A DNA stretch of 64,000 nt from Arthrobacter gandavensis. GTDB lineage: Bacteria > Actinomycetota > Actinomycetes > Actinomycetales > Micrococcaceae. The notes under the pieces are model-generated. The model made no database searches, was not told the origin of the DNA, and saw only the letters and a list, made by a program, of their open reading frames with translations. Shown piece by piece: positions 45,323-53,129 of this stretch. The position numbers and the translations under genes are program-made. How positions within the stretch are numbered: position 1 is the stretch's first letter; each line of letters begins with the position of its first letter. The stretch covers positions 1,054,001 to 1,118,000 of the forward strand of contig NZ_VTFU01000001.1 in assembly GCF_009192735.1 (NCBI RefSeq), written 5' to 3'.

Positions 45323-48300
45323 CTAACCCTGTGACGCAGCACATACTCCATACCCCAGTGCCAGGCTCCGGTCGCACCACGCGGCGTCGGCCGGGTTGTG
45401 GGTGACTACGACGACGGACTTGCCGCGCAATCCGGCGGTGAGGTCGGCCATCAGCTGCTCTCCCGCCTCGGCGTCCAGATGGGCGGTGGGTTCATCCAGC
45501 AGCACGACGTCGGCTTCGGTCAGGAGGGCGCGCGCCACTGCGAGGCGCTGGCGCTGTCCGCCCGAGAGGAAGTGTCCGCCGCCGCCCACCCGGGTGTCCA
45601 GACCGTCCGGAAGCCCGGCGAGGAAGGGACCAAGCCCGACGGCTTCGAGGGCCGCAGTCATTTCCGCATCGTCCGGCGCGTGCCGGCGGTCACGGGCCAG
45701 CAGCAGGTTCCCGCGGAGCGTTGAGTCGAACAGATGGGCTTCCTGCGGGCACCAGGCCATCCGCCGGGCCGCTGCCGGAAGGTCGGCGGCGGGAGTGCCG
45801 TTGATAAGGAAGGATCCCTGCTGCGGCACCAGGAAGCCGAGCAGGACGCCCAGGAGCGTGGATTTTCCGCTGCCGGACGGCCCGGTGACGGCAAGCCAGC
45901 TGCCGGGGTACAGGTCCAGGTCCAGGTCCTTGAAGACCGGGGTTGCCTGGCCGGGATAGCTGTAGCTGACACCGCGCAGCTGCACGGTTTCCACGGGACG
46001 CGCATCGGCGGCGGCTTTCGTGCCCGCCGTTTCGCTGTCCGGGGTTTCCGCCGTTTCGCTGTCCAAGGTTTCCAGCGGCTCGACGTCATCGGTTCCGAGG
46101 TCAGGCAGCACCTTATCGCCAAGCGTGCGCCAGGCCGTGAACTGCTGGATGGAACCGTTGACCGCCACGAAGGCTTCGATGAGGGCAAGCTGCATCAGGA
46201 CAACGACGGCAGCAACGGTGGCCGGCACTGAATGTGCCACCGTCAGGACGTACAGCGCTCCGAGCGAGCAGGCCAGCGCGGTCACGGCATTGGCCAGTCC
46301 CTGGGCCCAGGCGCTGCGCCGTACTGCGGCGGAGGCGCGGGCATCCAGTTCCTGCTGCCGCGCAAAGACCTCCGGCGCACTGCTGTTGGCCGTCAGGTCA
46401 GGAGCGGCGGAGAGCAGCCGGGCCATGGCTGACATGGACCGGGACTGCAGCCGCACGGTTGCCGCACGTGCCGCGGCATCGGCACCGTGGGCCATTAGGG
46501 GTGCAATGACGAGGCCGACCACGCAGACCGCAATCTGCACCGGAAGCGCCTCGGGCAACAGCAGGCCGGTGGCGATGCAGGCGGCAACGGCCGTGAAGAA
46601 CCCGGTCAGCGGGGCGAAGACGACGCGCGGAGCGATATCCCGCAGTTCGTCGACGTCGCCAACCAGGCGCTCCAGGGCGCCGCCGCCGCGGGCCAGGCGG
46701 CGCCAGCCCTCGGGACGCTGCAGCAGGCCGTTCCACAACCGGATGCGGATGGAGTTGGTGGCGCGGAAGACGGCGTCGTGCAGCTGCAGCCGTTCAAGGT
46801 AACGCAGAACGGAGCGGCCGATGCCGAAGAACCGGACACCGACGATCGCGGCAAGCAGCAGCAGGATGGGCGGCTGCTCGAAGGCGCGCACAATGAGCCA
46901 GCCCGAGAGCGAGGTGAGAGCCACGGCAAAGAGCGTTGCTCCGGTGCCCAGCAACAGTGCCAGGAGGAACTGCCTGCTCCACGGGCGCAGGACCACGAGA
47001 TTCTTCCACAGCGGCTGGTGCTCCGGGTGGGTTTCAACCTCCGCAAGCTCCTCCTGCCAGCGGACAGATGCCGGTTGGGCGGCATGCAGGGTGCCGGGAG
47101 TCGGCGCCGGGGCTTCAGGGCCGGAGGCCGGGCCGGAATCAGGGCCGAAACTGGCCTCGGCCGCGGTCTGCGCCGCTGTGGAACCGGAAGCGGACGGCAG
47201 CGGCTGCGGCAGGCCCGCACCGGCGTCGTGTCCGCAGTCCACCGGAATCACGCGGTCGGCGATGGAGGCTGCGGCCTGATCATGGGCCACCAGCAGGACG
47301 GTGACCGAACCGCGCAGGCTGTTCAGGGCCCGGATCACGGCGCCGGCGCTGCTGGAGTCCAAATGAGCCGTGGGCTCGTCGGCAAGCAGCAGGCGCACCT
47401 GGGGCTGGGAGTCAACCCGGGCCAGGGCACGGGCGACCGCAACACGGCGCTGCTCCCCCGGGCTCAGGTCAGCCGTGCGGGTGTCCAGCAGGTGCAGGGC
47501 ATCAATGGCCGTCAGCGCCGCCACGGCTGCCTGCCGGCCTTCTTCTCCGTTCAGCCCGGAATACAGGGCAATCTCGGCTGCCGTGGTCTCCTCGACCAGC
47601 ACCGGGTGCTGGGGGATCCAGGCAATGCCGGCCCGCTCGATGCCGGTGACGGAGCCTTCGATCGTGGTGCCGCCGCCGCTGCGGCGCAAACCGGCGAGCG
47701 CCTCCAGCACTGAGGTCTTGCCGGTGCCGGACGCACCGGTCAGGGCAGCGATGCTGCCGGCGGGCACGCTGAAACTGAGATTGGCGACGGCGGGCTTCGG
47801 GCGTCCGGCATACCGGATGGTCAACCCCGAAACTGTAACTGCTGTTCCGGCCGGGAAACCCGGACCTGCCGGAAGTGAGGCCTTCTCCGGAACCAGTGCC
47901 ACTGCGGCGGGAGCATCAAGAACGGAGTTGGTGCGTTTCAGGGCCTCCAGGCCGTCTTCGCTCGCGTGGTGTGCGGTGCCCAGGTCGCGCAGCGGCTGAT
48001 AGCACTCCGGCGCCAGGATCAGGGCCAGCAGGCCCAGCTCCAGGGACATGGAACCGTTGACCAGCCGCACACCGATGACCACGGCCACGAGTGCCACCGA
48101 AATAGTGGCGATGAGCTCCAGCGCCAGGGAGGACAGGAAGGCCACACGCAGGGTTTCCAGCGTACGGACGCGGTAGTTGTCGGCCACATCGCGCAGCGCC
48201 CGGGTCTGGGCGCGGGCACGGCCCAGGCCCACGAGGACCGGCAGCCCCCTGGCGAGCTCGAGCATGTTGTCGGACAGGCGGTTCAGGGCGTCAACAGCTG

Positions 48301-48838
48301 CCGCGGTCTTGTCGCCGGTGTGCAGGCCGATGAGGATCATGAACACCGGGATCAGCGGCACGGTCAGGACCACCACCAGTGCGCTGAGCCAGTCCGCCGA
48401 CAGGATGCGCAGGCCCACCAGCAAAGGTACGACGGCGCAGGTCACCAGGGCGGGCAGGTATTTGGCGTAGTAGTTGTCCAGACCGTCCAGTCCACGGGTG
48501 ATCAGCACGCTCAGCGCGCCGCTGCCCATGCCGGGCACGCTGCCGCCGTCCTCCAGCGCCCGGGAGGTCAGCGATGCGCGCAGCTCCTCCTTGACGCCCG
48601 CGGCAGCCCGCTGGGAAACCGTATCGGTGCCCCAGACGGCGAGCGAACGCAGCACCGCACCGGCAATTCCGTTGGCCAGCACCCAGCGCCAGTCCGGCCC
48701 ACCGGTGGCCAGCCCGGCCACACCGGCGGCAACGCCGGTGGCCAGCAGCACCAGGCCCGCCGCCTTGACCGCGGCGAGGAGTCCCAGGAGGTACAGCGCG
48801 CGCCGGCTGGCCGCGCTGACCGGAAGCACCGGTTTCAT
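45323..48838 (-). CDS. cydDC: Fused CydD-CydC thiol reductant ABC exporter
   Basis: 1171 residues from ATG 48838, overlapping the cydB stop (ATGA). Two ABC half-transporters are joined in one chain. The first has a membrane domain (about 10-300) and NBD (about 340-545; Walker A TGASGTGKTS, signature LSPGEQRRVAVA, LLLADEPTAHLD). The second has its own membrane domain (about 640-920) and NBD (about 955-1160; TGPSGSGKST, LSGGQRQRLAVA, VLLDEPTAHLD). CydDC exports glutathione/cysteine or cycles haem for cytochrome bd assembly. In E. coli the two halves are separate genes; the fusion is common in actinobacteria. Last gene of cydA-cydB-cydDC. Confidence 0.94.
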   Translation of the reverse strand: MKPVLPVSAASRRALYLLGLLAAVKAAGLVLLATGVAAGVAGLATGGPDWRWVLANGIAGAVLRSLAVWGTDTVSQRAAAGVKEELRASLTSRALEDGGSVPGMGSGALSVLITRGLDGLDNYYAKYLPALVTCAVVPLLVGLRILSADWLSALVVVLTVPLIPVFMILIGLHTGDKTAAAVDALNRLSDNMLELARGLPVLVGLGRARAQTRALRDVADNYRVRTLETLRVAFLSSLALELIATISVALVAVVIGVRLVNGSMSLELGLLALILAPECYQPLRDLGTAHHASEDGLEALKRTNSVLDAPAAVALVPEKASLPAGPGFPAGTAVTVSGLTIRYAGRPKPAVANLSFSVPAGSIAALTGASGTGKTSVLEALAGLRRSGGGTTIEGSVTGIERAGIAWIPQHPVLVEETTAAEIALYSGLNGEEGRQAAVAALTAIDALHLLDTRTADLSPGEQRRVAVARALARVDSQPQVRLLLADEPTAHLDSSSAGAVIRALNSLRGSVTVLLVAHDQAAASIADRVIPVDCGHDAGAGLPQPLPSASGSTAAQTAAEASFGPDSGPASGPEAPAPTPGTLHAAQPASVRWQEELAEVETHPEHQPLWKNLVVLRPWSRQFLLALLLGTGATLFAVALTSLSGWLIVRAFEQPPILLLLAAIVGVRFFGIGRSVLRYLERLQLHDAVFRATNSIRIRLWNGLLQRPEGWRRLARGGGALERLVGDVDELRDIAPRVVFAPLTGFFTAVAACIATGLLLPEALPVQIAVCVVGLVIAPLMAHGADAAARAATVRLQSRSMSAMARLLSAAPDLTANSSAPEVFARQQELDARASAAVRRSAWAQGLANAVTALACSLGALYVLTVAHSVPATVAAVVVLMQLALIEAFVAVNGSIQQFTAWRTLGDKVLPDLGTDDVEPLETLDSETAETPDSETAGTKAAADARPVETVQLRGVSYSYPGQATPVFKDLDLDLYPGSWLAVTGPSGSGKSTLLGVLLGFLVPQQGSFLINGTPAADLPAAARRMAWCPQEAHLFDSTLRGNLLLARDRRHAPDDAEMTAALEAVGLGPFLAGLPDGLDTRVGGGGHFLSGGQRQRLAVARALLTEADVVLLDEPTAHLDAEAGEQLMADLTAGLRGKSVVVVTHNPADAAWCDRSLALGYGVCAASQG

Positions 48839-49854
48839 TGGGCGTTCACCGTGTGGGCCGCCGGGATGGCTTCAGCCGTGATGCGCTTGCGGAACACCCA
48901 GTAGGTCCACCCCTGGTAGAGCACCACCACGGGCAGGCCGAAGAGGGAGACCCAGGAGATCACGGTCAGCGTGTAGTCCGAGGATGATGCGTTGTCGACG
49001 GTCAGGCTCCAGGCCGGATCCAGAGTTGACGGCAGCACGTTCGGGTACAGCGAGGCGAAAATCGTGAAGACGCCGGCCACCAGGAACAGGCCCATGTAGA
49101 TGAAGCTCCAGCCGTCGCGTCCGCGGCGCGCCATGGTCCAGGACAGAACCACGGCAACCACGGCCAGCACCAGCGGGATCAGGGTCAGCGCCTTGCCGTT
49201 CTGCAGCTGCACCACAATGGCCCAGGCAGCCATGGGCAGCACGCCCAGGGGCAGCCAGCGGACGACGGCGCGGCGGGCCCGCACTTCAATGTCGCCGCGG
49301 GTCTTCAGCGCCAGGAACACGCAGGCATGGACCAGGCAGAAGGCCACAACGGCCAGACCGCCCAGGACGGCGTAACCGTTGAACCATGCGAAGGCTCCGC
49401 CCACCCGGTCGCCGTTCTCGTTCAGCGGCAGGCCGGTGGTGGTCAGCGCCAGCGCGGCCCCAACACCGAAGGCCGAGACGAAGGAGCCAAGCGCCATGGC
49501 CCAGTCCCAGCGGCTGCGCCAGCGGTCGTCGTTGTGCTTGCCGCGGTACTCGATGGCCACGGCCCGGAAGATCAGGCCCAGCAGGACCAGGACCAGCGGA
49601 AGGTACAGGGCCGAGAACAGTGCGGCATACCAGAGCGGGAAGGTGGCAAACGTCATGGCTCCGGCGGTGATGAGCCAGACCTCATTGCCGTCCCAGACCG
49701 GGCCGATCGTGTTGAGCATGACCCGGCGGTCCTTCTCGCTGCGGCCCATGAGCTTCATGAGCATGCCGACACCGAGATCGAATCCTTCCAGGAACAGGTA
49801 TCCGGTCCAGAGGAAGGCCAGGAGGATGAACCAAAGGGTGGGTAGCGAAATCAC
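48835..49854 (-). CDS. cydB: Cytochrome bd oxidase subunit II
   Basis: 339 residues from GTG 49854 (MISLPTLWFILLAFLWTGYLFLEGFDLGVGML). Eight or so membrane helices; the FLEGFDLGVGML opening and VWDGNEVWLITAGAMTFATFP are family signatures. With CydA it forms the quinol oxidase that reduces O2 to water in the membrane, with high oxygen affinity and resistance to cyanide. Normal length. Its stop overlaps the start of cydDC. GGAG nine bases upstream supports the GTG start. Confidence 0.96.
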   Translation of the reverse strand: MISLPTLWFILLAFLWTGYLFLEGFDLGVGMLMKLMGRSEKDRRVMLNTIGPVWDGNEVWLITAGAMTFATFPLWYAALFSALYLPLVLVLLGLIFRAVAIEYRGKHNDDRWRSRWDWAMALGSFVSAFGVGAALALTTTGLPLNENGDRVGGAFAWFNGYAVLGGLAVVAFCLVHACVFLALKTRGDIEVRARRAVVRWLPLGVLPMAAWAIVVQLQNGKALTLIPLVLAVVAVVLSWTMARRGRDGWSFIYMGLFLVAGVFTIFASLYPNVLPSTLDPAWSLTVDNASSSDYTLTVISWVSLFGLPVVVLYQGWTYWVFRKRITAEAIPAAHTVNAQ

Positions 49855-49874: not shown

Positions 49875-51518
49875 TTAGTAGGCAAAGCCGAGGACGTCGT
49901 CGGGCTGCTTGGTCTTGGTGCCGGTGCCGGCGTCACTGTCACTGCCCGTTCCGTCGTCGCCGCCGGCGGAATCCAGGCCGCCGGAGGAACCGCCGTCGTG
50001 CCCTTCACCGTGCAGCAGTTCAGGCATGGCGGACGGGACGCCGCCGCGGGTGAACTTGAACAGCAGCCGCACCTCCACGATCAGCAGCGCCAGGTAGACC
50101 AGGACGAAGGCGGCCAGGGAGAACAGCAGCTCGGCCCGTGAGACTCCCGGTGACACGGCAGCGGCGGTGAACATGAACACCTGGTCGATGCCGGTGAAGC
50201 TGGGGTTGGGTGCCACGACAAACGGCTGGCGGCCCATTTCGGTGAAGATCCAGCCGGCGCTGTTGGCGCCGAAGGGTGCCAGGATGCCGAACACGGCCAG
50301 GCGCATGAGCCACTTGGACTGCGGCACGGTGCCCTTGCGGGTGATCCAGAGGGCCACAGCCGCGGCGGCCGCGGCAATGGCGCCGAAGCCGATCATGATG
50401 CGGAAGCCCCAGTAGGTCACGGACATCACGGGAAGGTAGTCGATTTCGGTGCCGGCCTGGTCCCCGTACTTGGGGTCGTCCGGGATGTGTGTTCCGTAGG
50501 CTTCCTGGTACTCAGGGATCAGGGTGTTGACGCCTTTGACGTCGGTGTTGAAGTCGCCGTTCGCCAGGAACGACAGGACCCCGGGAACCTCAATGACCGC
50601 CGTGACGTCGTCGCAGTTCTTCGCTCCGACGTCGCCGATGGAGAGGATGGAGAAGGACGTGCCGTCATGGCAGGCCGCTTCCGCTGCCGCCATCTTCATG
50701 GGCTGCTGGTCGAACATGAGCTTGCCCTGCAGGTCACCGGTGACGGCCGTGCCCGCGAAGGAAATCATGGCGATGACGGCGCCGATGCGCAGCGACTTGA
50801 TCCACACACTGTGGTCCGCCTTGTCGCGGCCGATCTCCGGGCGGGAACCAACGTTGACGGTGCCGTCCTCGTTGACGGTGTCAATGCCGTCCCTGCGCCG
50901 CTTCCAGAGGTGGTACCAGGCGATGCCCAGCAGGAATCCGCCGGCCACGGACAGGGCTGCGGTGATTTGGTGCGGGAAGGCCACCAGCAGCGTGTTGTTG
51001 GTCAGCACTGCCCAGATGTCGGTGAGCACGGGGCGGCCGTCGACCATTTCCACGCCGACGGGGTGCTGCATCCAGGAGTTGGCCGCCAGGATGAAGTAGG
51101 CGGAGAGCACCGAGGCCAGCGTGGCGATCCAGATGGACGCGAGGTGGAGCTTCTTGGGCAGCCTGTCCCAGCCGAAGATCCACAGGCCCAGGAACACGGA
51201 CTCCGTGAAGAAGGCCAGGAGTGATTCCAGGGCCAGCGGGGCCCCGAACACGTCACCGACGAAACGGCTGTATTCGCTCCAGGCCATGCCGAACTGGAAC
51301 TCCTGCACCAGGCCGGTGGCGACGCCCATGATGAAGTTGATCAGGAAGAGCTTGCCCCAGAACTTGGTCATGCGCAGGTATTCGTCTTTACCCGTCCGGA
51401 CCCACATCGTCTGGAGAGTTGCAACCACCAGTCCCAGGCCGATGGTCAGCGGCACCATGAGGAAGTGATAAACGGTGGTGATGCCGAACTGCCAGCGGGC
51501 AATATCGAGTGCTTCCAA
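49875..51518 (-). CDS. cydA: Cytochrome bd oxidase subunit I
   Basis: 547 residues from TTG 51518 (MEALDIARWQFGITTVYHFLMVPLTIGLG), with AGGAAG eight bases upstream. Haem ligand His19 sits in TVYHFLMV; EMGRQPFVVAPNP is the GRQP motif of the quinol-oxidation face. About nine helices, and a short Q-loop type as in actinobacteria. The last 60 residues are soluble, acidic and Gly/Ser-rich (GGSSGGLDSAGGDDGTGSD), an unusual tail. First gene of the cyd operon; its promoter region is shared with the divergent blaI-M56 pair and carries two palindromes. Confidence 0.96.
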   Translation of the reverse strand: MEALDIARWQFGITTVYHFLMVPLTIGLGLVVATLQTMWVRTGKDEYLRMTKFWGKLFLINFIMGVATGLVQEFQFGMAWSEYSRFVGDVFGAPLALESLLAFFTESVFLGLWIFGWDRLPKKLHLASIWIATLASVLSAYFILAANSWMQHPVGVEMVDGRPVLTDIWAVLTNNTLLVAFPHQITAALSVAGGFLLGIAWYHLWKRRRDGIDTVNEDGTVNVGSRPEIGRDKADHSVWIKSLRIGAVIAMISFAGTAVTGDLQGKLMFDQQPMKMAAAEAACHDGTSFSILSIGDVGAKNCDDVTAVIEVPGVLSFLANGDFNTDVKGVNTLIPEYQEAYGTHIPDDPKYGDQAGTEIDYLPVMSVTYWGFRIMIGFGAIAAAAAAVALWITRKGTVPQSKWLMRLAVFGILAPFGANSAGWIFTEMGRQPFVVAPNPSFTGIDQVFMFTAAAVSPGVSRAELLFSLAAFVLVYLALLIVEVRLLFKFTRGGVPSAMPELLHGEGHDGGSSGGLDSAGGDDGTGSDSDAGTGTKTKQPDDVLGFAY

Positions 51519-51545
51519 GGGACGCTTCCTTTACTCGGACCAGAA

Positions 51546-51619
51546 TTCTACAGAGCGTAGAAGTTCATTCTTAATTTGATCGTAGAGCACTTTCCGCGAC
51601 TTTTCTACGTGATGTAGAA
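51546..51619. promoter_or_regulatory. Two TTCTAC-N5-GTAGAA operators between cydA and blaI
   Basis: TTCTAC-agagc-GTAGAA (51546-51562) and TTCTAC-gtgat-GTAGAA (51603-51619) have identical 6-bp arms and 5-bp centres, with start points 57 bp apart. A half-site CGTAGAG lies between (51581-51587). The first lies about 30 bp before the cydA start; a -10-like TACGAT (51584-51579) on the minus strand would put it just downstream of the cydA transcription start. The second lies near the cydA -35 and upstream of a TACATT (51638-51643) that may serve blaI. The dyads are typical of BlaI/MecI/CopY operators. Confidence 0.75.
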
Positions 51620-51747
51620 CCAACGCCGAAAAGCCTGTACATTAGACACACCACACCTCCTCCGTGCGGGTCGGCAGTGCTGATGCACGCCGGCCGCAGC
51701 AACGAGGGGAGGTTTTTGATTTGTGTGATGCGAAGGACGGAACAAGG

Positions 51748-52125
51748 ATGGCCACCCTCGGCGAGCTGGAACGGGCAACAATGGACCTCCTGTGGGAGTC
51801 TCCGGAAGCCGCCAGCGCAAATGAACTGCGTGAAAAACTGGCCCAGGCCAACCCTGAGGCAGGCACGGGGACCGGCAAGGGCCTGGCCGTGACCACCATC
51901 CTCACCGTGCTCTCACGGCTGGAAAAGAAGGGCCTGGTGGAACGGGAACGGAACATCCGCCCCCACCGCTACCGCGCCGTCACCACCAAGGCCGAGCACA
52001 CCGCCGAACTGATGCATGAAGTCCTCGGCTCGGTGAGTGACCGCGAGGCCGTGCTGGCCCGGTTCATCGGCTCCGTGTCGGTCACGGAGGCCGAGACGCT
52101 GCGGCGACTGCTCGGCGGCTCCTGA
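51748..52125 (+). CDS. blaI: BlaI/MecI/CopY-family transcriptional repressor
   Basis: 125 residues from ATG 51748 (MATLGELERATMDLLWESPEAASANELREKL); the longer in-frame start is rejected because this matches the family start, with GAAGGA upstream. The winged helix runs to about residue 75 (TILTVLSRLEKKGLVERERNIRPHRYRAV), and the C-terminal helices dimerise. In staphylococci such repressors are cleaved by the BlaR/MecR sensor protease. Here the M56 peptidase gene follows 29 bp later. The two palindromes upstream are its likely targets, and cydA is divergent from it. Confidence 0.93.
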   Translation: MATLGELERATMDLLWESPEAASANELREKLAQANPEAGTGTGKGLAVTTILTVLSRLEKKGLVERERNIRPHRYRAVTTKAEHTAELMHEVLGSVSDREAVLARFIGSVSVTEAETLRRLLGGS

Positions 52126-52154
52126 TCCGGTAGCCCCACCTACTTTCCGCCGCG

Positions 52155-53129
52155 GTGTTTTGGGCCTCATATTGCCTAGCTGCGCTGGCTCTTGTGCTGG
52201 CGTGGCCGGTTCCCATTGCCCTCTCCCGGGCCAAGTGGCCGGCCCGTTCGCCCTTCACGGCCATGGTGCTGTGGCAGGCGATCGCCCTCGCCGGCGGCCT
52301 GTCCATGATCGGGGCCATGCTGACCTGGGGTCTTGAACCCATTGGCGACAACCTTGTGTCCGCGCTGCACGGATTGTGGAACATCCTGCTGTACGGCGCA
52401 CCGGCCACGACACTGGGCCTGGTGCATGTCTTCGCCCTCAGTGCCGCCCTGCTGCTGACCATCCATCTGGTGTTCACGCTGCTGCTGACCTACTACCGGA
52501 TCCGCCGCGGCCGCCGCCGGCACCGCGGCATGCTGACCCTGCTGAGTTCCCCTTCCGACAGCAGGCCGGCCACAGTGGTGATCAACCATCCCACGCCGGT
52601 GGCGTACTGCCTGCCGGGCGGCGCGCGGTCCGTCACTGTCCTGTCCGACGGGCTCCTGGAGATGCTCTCGGATGACGAACTCTCCGCGGTCCTGATCCAC
52701 GAAAAAGCCCACCTGTCCCAGCGCCATCACCTGCTGCTGTGGGCTTTTGCCGCTTGGCGCGCCGCCCTGCCGTGGCTGCCGACCTCCCAATTGGCGCAGC
52801 AGTCCGTGAATGAGCTCATCGAAATGCTCGCCGACGACGAGGCCCTGCGCGAGGTGGAGCCCGAGACGCTGATCCGGGCAGTGGCGATCGTGGGAACCGG
52901 CGCACAGCCGGCCGAGGACGGCCTTCAGCGCGCCGCGGCAAAAGCCCAGGGAGCATCACTGCTGGCCAATCCGGACGAGCAGGAGCAGCTCGGCACGGTG
53001 CGGCGCCTCAGCCGGCTGCTGACGCCCCTGCCGCCGCTGCCGGGCTGGCAGCGGTGGGCTGTGCTGATGGCATCCGTGCTGCTGCTGGCCGTCCCCACCG
53101 TCCTGCTGATTGCCCCGGGGATGCTGTAG
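52155..53129 (+). CDS. M56-family membrane metallopeptidase (BlaR1-like, no sensor domain)
   Basis: 324 residues from GTG 52155. Helices near 3-20, 36-56, 68-80 and 88-112 precede a zinc protease domain with HEKAH (182-186, HExxH form) and a downstream acidic ligand region (NELIEMLADDEAL); a final helix lies near 300-318. The penicillin-binding sensor of BlaR1/MecR1 is absent, as in most actinobacterial members, so the activating signal is unknown. It probably inactivates BlaI, thereby relieving repression of itself and, by the operators, of the cyd operon. Confidence 0.92.
   Translation: MFWASYCLAALALVLAWPVPIALSRAKWPARSPFTAMVLWQAIALAGGLSMIGAMLTWGLEPIGDNLVSALHGLWNILLYGAPATTLGLVHVFALSAALLLTIHLVFTLLLTYYRIRRGRRRHRGMLTLLSSPSDSRPATVVINHPTPVAYCLPGGARSVTVLSDGLLEMLSDDELSAVLIHEKAHLSQRHHLLLWAFAAWRAALPWLPTSQLAQQSVNELIEMLADDEALREVEPETLIRAVAIVGTGAQPAEDGLQRAAAKAQGASLLANPDEQEQLGTVRRLSRLLTPLPPLPGWQRWAVLMASVLLLAVPTVLLIAPGML

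Follow-up and report, generated by a model that had tools for sequence, protein, structure and literature searches.

BlaI-BlaR pairs have mostly been studied as resistance switches, and among the closest described systems are BlaI-BlaR1 and MecI-MecR1 of Staphylococcus aureus, whose operator core is TACA-N2-TGTA. Here we analyze a blaI gene of Arthrobacter gandavensis, the gene for an M56/BlaR1-like membrane protease that follows it, and the cytochrome bd (cyd) operon that diverges from them, all within a window of 64 kilobases (kb; the whole stretch of DNA analyzed, positions 1,054,001 to 1,118,000 of contig NZ_VTFU01000001.1). Like the S. aureus systems, this one has a repressor paired with an M56-type protease, a divergent target, palindromic operators and a phenylalanine that aligns by eye with the cleavage site; unlike them, it has no penicillin-binding sensor, its divergent target is an oxidase instead of a beta-lactamase, and its operator is the dyad TTCTAC-N5-GTAGAA.

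In Mycobacterium tuberculosis, whose BlaR is sensor-less, BlaI has been reported at the promoters of blaC, cytochrome bd and ATP synthase (PMC5473688); BlaI there also binds the promoter of the first gene of the atp operon, and its overexpression lowers the transcript, as shown in 2025 (PMC12565901). A link of BlaI to cyd and atp therefore has a precedent in that species, for which the signal of sensor-less actinobacterial BlaR has been stated to be an open question (PMC5473688, PMC9834060). The A. gandavensis pair resembles BlaI (Rv1846c) and BlaR (Rv1845c) of M. tuberculosis in its sensor-less protease and in having putative sites at the cyd and atp promoters; unlike the situation in M. tuberculosis, where blaC is a target, the two beta-lactamase-like genes found here are without a dyad, blaI adjoins cyd, and dyads reach genes of haem synthesis, the bc1-aa3 branch, cytochrome c maturation and globins. 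Other regulators are reported to govern similar functions by other means: HrrSA of Corynebacterium glutamicum controls haem synthesis, the respiratory chain and terminal-oxidase choice (PMC7337898), and in Streptomyces avermitilis genes of aerobic metabolism are under the control of Rex (PMC5355995), HrrSA being a haem-responsive two-component system, not a repressor removed by proteolysis, and Rex an NADH-responsive repressor with its own ROP operators. A review on how Gram-positive bacteria regulate haem does not mention BlaI (PMC10991733), and no report of such a regulon in Arthrobacter or its relatives was among the papers listed in a search whose coverage largely excludes subscription papers. 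Within that literature, we found no description, for these bacteria, of haem- and respiration-wide targets, of the operator code, of dyads being lost together with blaI or of a missing beta-lactamase target. We consider it likely, from the distribution of the dyads, that BlaI represses an oxidative-phosphorylation and haem regulon, most tightly at cyd, and that the M56 protein relieves this repression.

The locus is organized as follows, with the names cydA, cydB and cydDC given from the sequence.

51748-52125, plus strand: blaI, a 125-amino-acid BlaI/MecI-type winged-helix repressor (PF03965), ATG start at 51748
52155-53129, plus strand: M56/BlaR1-like membrane zinc protease of 324 amino acids, directly after blaI, with HEKAH at residues 182-186 and EMLAD at 223-227
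51546-51562: operator dyad 1, TTCTACAGAGCGTAGAA, exact, overlapping the predicted cydA -10 element and conserved in aligned relatives
51571-51587: decayed middle dyad, overlapping the predicted cydA -35 element, offset +25, with 5 mismatches here
51603-51619: operator dyad 3, TTCTACGTGATGTAGAA, exact, upstream of blaI
51545-51574, minus strand: predicted cydA promoter, TTAAGA-N18-TAGAAT (consensus scan, 1 match versus 0.2 in shuffles)
49875-51518, minus strand: cydA, cytochrome bd oxidase subunit I, an open reading frame with a TTG start at 51518
48835-49854, minus strand: cydB, cytochrome bd oxidase subunit II, an open reading frame that lies beside cydA in relatives too
45323-48838, minus strand: cydDC, a CydD-CydC ABC exporter fused into a single reading frame of 1171 amino acids, downstream of cydAB

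The starts of cydA and blaI diverge across 229 base pairs (bp), in which the original prediction, made from the letters of the window, had placed two palindromes with identical arms and an additional half-site. Both palindromes are exact and lie at the positions given, and they are the sole matches to the dyad in the 64-kb window at up to two mismatches; 100 shuffles of the window gave a mean of 0.35 matches at that stringency, and 2 matches were reached in 3 of them. The half-site, GTAGAG at 51582-51587, is on sequence comparison the right arm of the decayed middle member of three dyads, a dyad that is intact at the same offset in four related loci (L050, L053, L056 and L061); L047 and L048, the closest two relatives, differ from it at 3 and 4 positions. 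Dyad 1 is overlapped by the predicted cydA promoter, and a -10-like TACATT, identified by eye at 51638-51643 and similar in most aligned relatives, begins 18 bp past the end of dyad 3. No terminator-like site was detected in 51480-51780 (Rfam was not searched).

A search for BlaI, restricted to one genome per species, returned 80 loci. Thirty-four of them (L047-L080) belong to genera that we take to be Micrococcaceae, and the remainder mainly to genera presumed to be Microbacteriaceae (Cryobacterium, Agromyces, Leifsonia, Agreia and Glaciibacter); one locus (L083) derives from a bin labelled Acidobacteria. The M56 gene follows blaI in all 80, cydA is divergent from blaI in 75 (the exceptions are L070, L071, L075, L078 and L079), and in all 80 the 300 bp preceding blaI contain a dyad with at most one mismatch, so that the dyads, on whose conservation in relatives the original prediction depended, are present throughout. 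There is one dyad in 14 of these loci, two in 41 and three in 25, and the spacing between tandem dyads is mostly 21-25 or 32-34 bp. In two genomes, G004 (L147, L229) and G035 (L150, L023), blaI-M56 and cydA are apart, and each has its own dyads.

BlaI matches PF03965 (Penicillinase_R) over residues 4-122 with an E value of 4e-19 (69.4 bits against a cut-off of 22.6), and the dyads at its own and putative target promoters, known by sequence and conservation, correspond to the palindromic operators of the BlaI/MecI/CopY family. Its sole sequence match in the PDB is 2g9w (E value of 2e-14), titled "conserved hypothetical protein," which we take to be M. tuberculosis BlaI (Rv1846c). Phe106 is invariant in 81 of 81 sequences and was aligned by eye with Phe102 of S. 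aureus BlaI; in that species, the bond of BlaI that BlaR1 cleaves is Asn101-Phe102 (PMC9834060). The protease has an HExxH motif in 80 of 80 orthologues, and H182, E183, H186, E223 and D227 are invariant in 81 aligned sequences. It scores below the Pfam cut-off for M56 (26.7 bits versus 31) and above that for M48, PF01435 (40.6 bits versus 20.3), for which reason "BlaR1-like membrane gluzincin" is the safe name. Its predicted structure contains long helices (predicted local distance difference test score, pLDDT, of 89.5) and most resembles S. aureus BlaR1 (8exs; Z score of 10.8, root mean square deviation of 6.1, 215 residues aligned, model residues 7-279), followed by M48 ZMPSTE24 (Z score of 9.7, residues 103-291), with Z scores of 5.7 or lower for the matches ranked below BepA; the BlaR1 match in Foldseek has an E value of 8e-4 and a low template modelling score (TM-score) of 0.32. 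As anticipated from the sequence, a penicillin-binding sensor domain is absent from the protein, which ends at 324 amino acids and aligns to BlaR1 residues 3-293 only.

Counted over its whole length, the genome (3.72 Mb; G000 in our numbering) contains 5 exact dyads at four places, against a base-composition expectation of 0.03, and 9 one-mismatch sites, against an expectation of 1.5. The exact dyads are the two at cyd/blaI, one 46 bp upstream of hemQ, and two that each precede the gene for a small membrane protein. Sites with one mismatch occur upstream of ctaE-qcr (with trpD downstream of the same site on the opposite strand), upstream of an ABC transporter gene followed by a ctaA-like gene (opposite a sufR/sufB region), upstream of resA-ccdA, atpI-atpB, sucC, a CopD-CtaG gene, a 96-amino-acid membrane protein and a gntR gene close to nrdH, and upstream of a divergent pair of proteins of unknown function. 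The earlier statement that cyd is the only other visible target thus stands within the window and fails genome-wide.

A scan of 61 family genomes for the dyad and its gene neighbours, a check suggested with the original prediction, yielded 283 exact dyads, present in 56 genomes, versus 27 matches to the reversed pattern (the same letters backwards). For 12 genomes with complete lists of exact dyads (G000, G004, G009, G019, G031, G032, G035, G039, G046, G047, G057 and G058), and with dyads within 300 bp merged as one place, the dyads occupy 57 places, which sort into 12 gene groups, all of them represented in at least two genomes: cyd/blaI (14 places), hemQ (11), a 142-amino-acid membrane protein (7), hmp (5), the 115-amino-acid membrane protein (5), a pyridoxamine-oxidase-like gene (3), and truncated haemoglobin, qcrC, the resA operon, ABC-ctaA, an 86-amino-acid gene and the unknown membrane protein L17b (L164 and L152), with 2 places each. 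Respiratory, haem or globin genes account for 38 of the 57 places and recurrent genes of unknown role for the other 19. In this count, the cyd/blaI places of G032, G039, G046, G047 and G058 were assigned from BlaI coordinates, all places of G019 were taken from L027 and the promoter comparisons below, L130 and L134 were assigned to the resA operon (the resA gene follows about 700 bp farther downstream on that strand), and L152 was assigned by eye (a DUF1775 gene adjoins). A wider set of 69 partly overlapping exact-dyad loci has a reference gene start within 450 bp in 64 cases; of the other five, L130, L134 and L152 are those just assigned, and L029 and L040 are without a group. Chance palindromes were accordingly rejected as an explanation, given 2 sites in the window versus 0.35, 5 exact dyads in the genome versus 0.03, and 283 in the family versus 27.

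The dyads also follow BlaI. Among the 61 family genomes, 53 encode a close BlaI (E value of 2e-22 or better), six have none at 1e-5, and two have only a divergent one; the 53 hold 280 exact dyads (25 for the control pattern) and the other eight hold 3 (2 for the control). Individual promoters were compared in 30 genomes (22 with close BlaI, 6 without BlaI and 2 with divergent BlaI) at up to one mismatch, with all rows kept and a second 115-amino-acid homologue of G003 counted among the 19 of that protein; cydA homologues are present in 26 of the 30. The genomes with a dyad are as follows, in the order close BlaI, no BlaI, divergent BlaI.

cydA: 21/21, 0/3, 2/2
hemQ: 15/22, 0/6, 0/2
atpI-atpB: 15/22, 0/6, 0/2
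ABC-ctaA: 15/22, 0/6, 0/2
ctaE-qcrC: 10/22, 0/5, 0/2
115-amino-acid protein: 4/19, 0/5, 0/2

Shuffled sequences of the BlaI-positive class would give at most 0.02 matches at this stringency (atp, ABC and ctaE) and, at up to two mismatches, 0.04 for hemQ and 0.16 for cydA. Because promoter dyads track BlaI, and because separated blaI and cydA both keep dyads, BlaI is the likely ligand of the dyads. The proposal that BlaI is wired to cyd has therefore gained strong sequence support, from the arrangement conserved in loci of two families and from the absence of dyads where BlaI is absent, with the amendment that cyd is one of many targets.

Operator quality is graded among these targets. In BlaI-positive genomes that have a site, it is exact in 21 of 21 at cydA (where 18 of 21 have two or more dyads), 12 of 15 at hemQ, 4 of 15 at ABC-ctaA, 1 of 10 at ctaE and 1 of 15 at atp. 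The atp site shares a TTCTAT change in 10 of 15 genomes, and the ctaE site reads ATCTAC in 6 of 10; such weak sites would have been retained through selection or descent. The gradient predicts that atp and bc1-aa3 would be released before cyd as BlaI declines.

From the dyads, their positions, their conservation and their co-occurrence with blaI, all read directly from sequence, we infer binding, repression, cleavage, a signal and an order of derepression. BlaI would bind the TTCTAC-N5-GTAGAA dyads, and the dyads at the divergon, usually two or three in tandem, would cover the promoter regions of both cydA and blaI, so that cyd would be tightly repressed and blaI-M56 autoregulated. Single and often imperfect dyads would exert weaker control over hemQ, ctaE-qcr, ABC-ctaA/suf, resA-ccdA and atp and, in some genomes, also over hemE, a globin, the flavohaemoglobin gene hmp and a few membrane proteins of small size and unknown function. 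The membrane M56 protein, once activated, would cut BlaI, probably before the invariant Phe106, and so lift repression. Because no sensor domain extends outside the cell, it probably responds to a state of the membrane or respiratory chain, such as oxidase inhibition, haem shortage or nitric oxide. BlaI is in this way a candidate for coordinating haem supply with the respiratory chain in these bacteria, with haem, oxidase and ATP-synthase genes as likely targets in place of resistance genes. A conserved target set that a single operator makes legible indicates what kind of signal to expect and makes that signal testable in harmless soil bacteria.

Several alternatives to this regulon need to be weighed. 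BlaI might control its own cyd divergon only, with the other dyads bound weakly, not at all or by another regulator that has a similar site; the cyd/blaI site alone is present in all BlaI-positive genomes tested (21 of 21, at least two dyads in 18), and the others are patchier. We nevertheless regard this as unlikely, given that the hemQ, atp, ABC-ctaA and ctaE sites are far above shuffles in BlaI-positive genomes, that none of these promoters has a site with up to one mismatch in the 8 genomes that lack a close BlaI, and that the exact dyads of 12 genomes lie at recurrent gene groups. A classical antibiotic response, in which beta-lactam or envelope damage activates the M56 protein and the adjustment of respiration is an offshoot of resistance, would fit the BlaR1-like protease and the reported rise of blaI-blaR and cydAB in M. 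tuberculosis under amoxicillin-clavulanate (PMC5473688). It is very unlikely here: the protease has no sensor domain; of the two class-A beta-lactamase-like (PF13354) genes found in this genome (C6:179247 and C4:87223), neither has a dyad with up to two mismatches within 35 kb (the site listing is complete for both contigs; other beta-lactamase classes and PBP2a-like genes were not searched); and no recognised cell-wall gene is among the 57 exact-dyad places, 19 of which are genes of unknown role. The suggested coupling of antibiotic stress to respiration accordingly found no support, and a respiratory or haem cue would suit the targets better than an antibiotic signal. That a different regulator, such as a haem, nitric oxide or redox sensor, binds the dyads and shares the cyd promoter with blaI by chance would agree with hmp, hemQ and cyd being typical targets of nitric oxide and haem sensors and with two genomes (G011 and G041) keeping a cydA dyad without a close BlaI; it is scarcely credible in view of the dyads that precede blaI even without an adjoining cydA (in the five exceptions listed above and in L147, L150 and L157) and of promoter dyads being gone where blaI is gone.

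Other observations weigh against a BlaI-controlled respiratory regulon, or at least against its full extent. About 1.5 of the 9 one-mismatch sites in this genome are expected by chance, the reversed control pattern occurs exactly twice (versus 5 dyads), and at up to two mismatches it is commoner here than the dyad (139 versus 65); we therefore place weight only on exact and one-mismatch sites and did not use two-mismatch sites as evidence in this genome. The sucCD, gntR/nrdH and 96-amino-acid protein sites are known from this genome alone, and one conservation profile of the dyad was built from sites chosen for the motif. Even at up to one mismatch, 7 of the 22 BlaI-positive genomes lack a dyad at hemQ, 7 lack one at atp, 7 at ABC-ctaA and 12 at ctaE-qcr, and the 115-amino-acid membrane protein has one in just 4 of 19 cases. 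Two of the 15 atp sites are nearer to atpB than the usual distance of about 840-990 bp, that of G001 being 299 bp and that of G012 167 bp upstream, and the BlaI-less G033 has a two-mismatch site upstream of atpB. G011 and G041, with divergent BlaI only, each keep one exact cydA dyad, 132-133 bp upstream (L250 and L248), and none at the other targets tested; a distant paralogue or other factor may use it. G059, without BlaI, has one exact dyad elsewhere. Lastly, cydAB is reported to go up but atp down in M. tuberculosis under beta-lactam (PMC5473688), which simple common derepression does not predict.

A wider reading joins several ideas, and we offer it jointly as a tentative possibility that is more doubtful than the regulon itself: BlaI and a sensor-less protease may form an old proteolytic respiratory switch of Actinomycetia, in which one operator code would set the levels of haem, of the two terminal oxidases, of cytochrome maturation and of ATP synthase, conserved differences in the number and quality of sites (tandem and perfect at cyd, TTCTAT at atp) would determine which parts of the respiratory chain are released first, and the control of beta-lactamase elsewhere would be a later recruitment of this switch.

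Outside the family, exact dyads occur in 19 of 148 class genomes (2 in family f1, 4 in f4, 10 in f20 and 3 in others) and in 1 of 10 genomes of family f21. In f20, dyads 19 bp apart lie at a distant cydA-like gene (26-31% identity; L255, L260, L262 and L267), with blaI-M56 adjoining in some, and single dyads with up to one mismatch lie at resA (L256), the 115-amino-acid protein (L258) and hemE (L259 and L263); three further dyads (L257, L264 and L265) adjoin none of the cydA-like, resA, 115-amino-acid protein and hemE genes, and ctaG is found only farther off, in L261 and L266. Of nine f20 blaI loci, five have blaI divergent from the cydA-like gene and eight have a dyad before blaI. No BlaI was detected at 1e-8 in 11 of 47 distant-family genomes. 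There is no cydA beside blaI-M56 in 5 of 5 loci of f19, with a dyad of up to two mismatches in 3 of them, and neither cydA nor a dyad beside the pair in f6 (3 loci) and f2 (1 locus). In f22, blaI is flanked by cydA and M56 in 6 of 6 loci, with the arms drifted to TAC(T/G)AC in 5, and f29 has one locus with blaI-M56 divergent from cydA. Since f22 and f29 retain a divergent cydA, in most loci with arms that have drifted to TACTAC or TACGAC, the association of BlaI-M56 with the bd oxidase seems, from these sequences, older than the TTCTAC-N5-GTAGAA operator.

Regarding the names used above, HemQ and CtaE score above the NCBIfam cut-offs, and the CtaA of L010 and the CtaG of L015 score below them, CtaG passing in Pfam; qcrC, trpD, sucB, ccdA, purF, atpI, sufR and the Rrf2-like genes were named by eye, and "truncated haemoglobin" is likewise a reading of the sequence by eye. 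Pfam returned no family for the 115-, 142- and 96-amino-acid membrane proteins, the atpI frame, the two L017 proteins, the 196-amino-acid protein of L008, the globin-like protein of L158 or the 86-amino-acid protein of L138. The exact dyad at the gene for the 115-amino-acid protein in A. gandavensis (C4:1121294-1121310; L006:5295) lies 3.3 kb beyond the end of the window and 62 bp upstream of the gene, which has a dyad in some relatives as well as in the distant family f20. Exact dyads upstream of the flavohaemoglobin gene hmp were found in eight loci (L032, L033, L041, L128, L133, L151, L159 and L166), several of which have an adjoining Rrf2/NsrR-like gene; these dyads suggest a nitric oxide branch of the regulon. 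In five other loci (L410, L415, L416, L418 and L420), BlaI-M56 pairs have neither cydA nor a dyad of up to two mismatches nearby, and in another (L419, from G071 of family f15) the pair adjoins a resA-like gene, not cydA.

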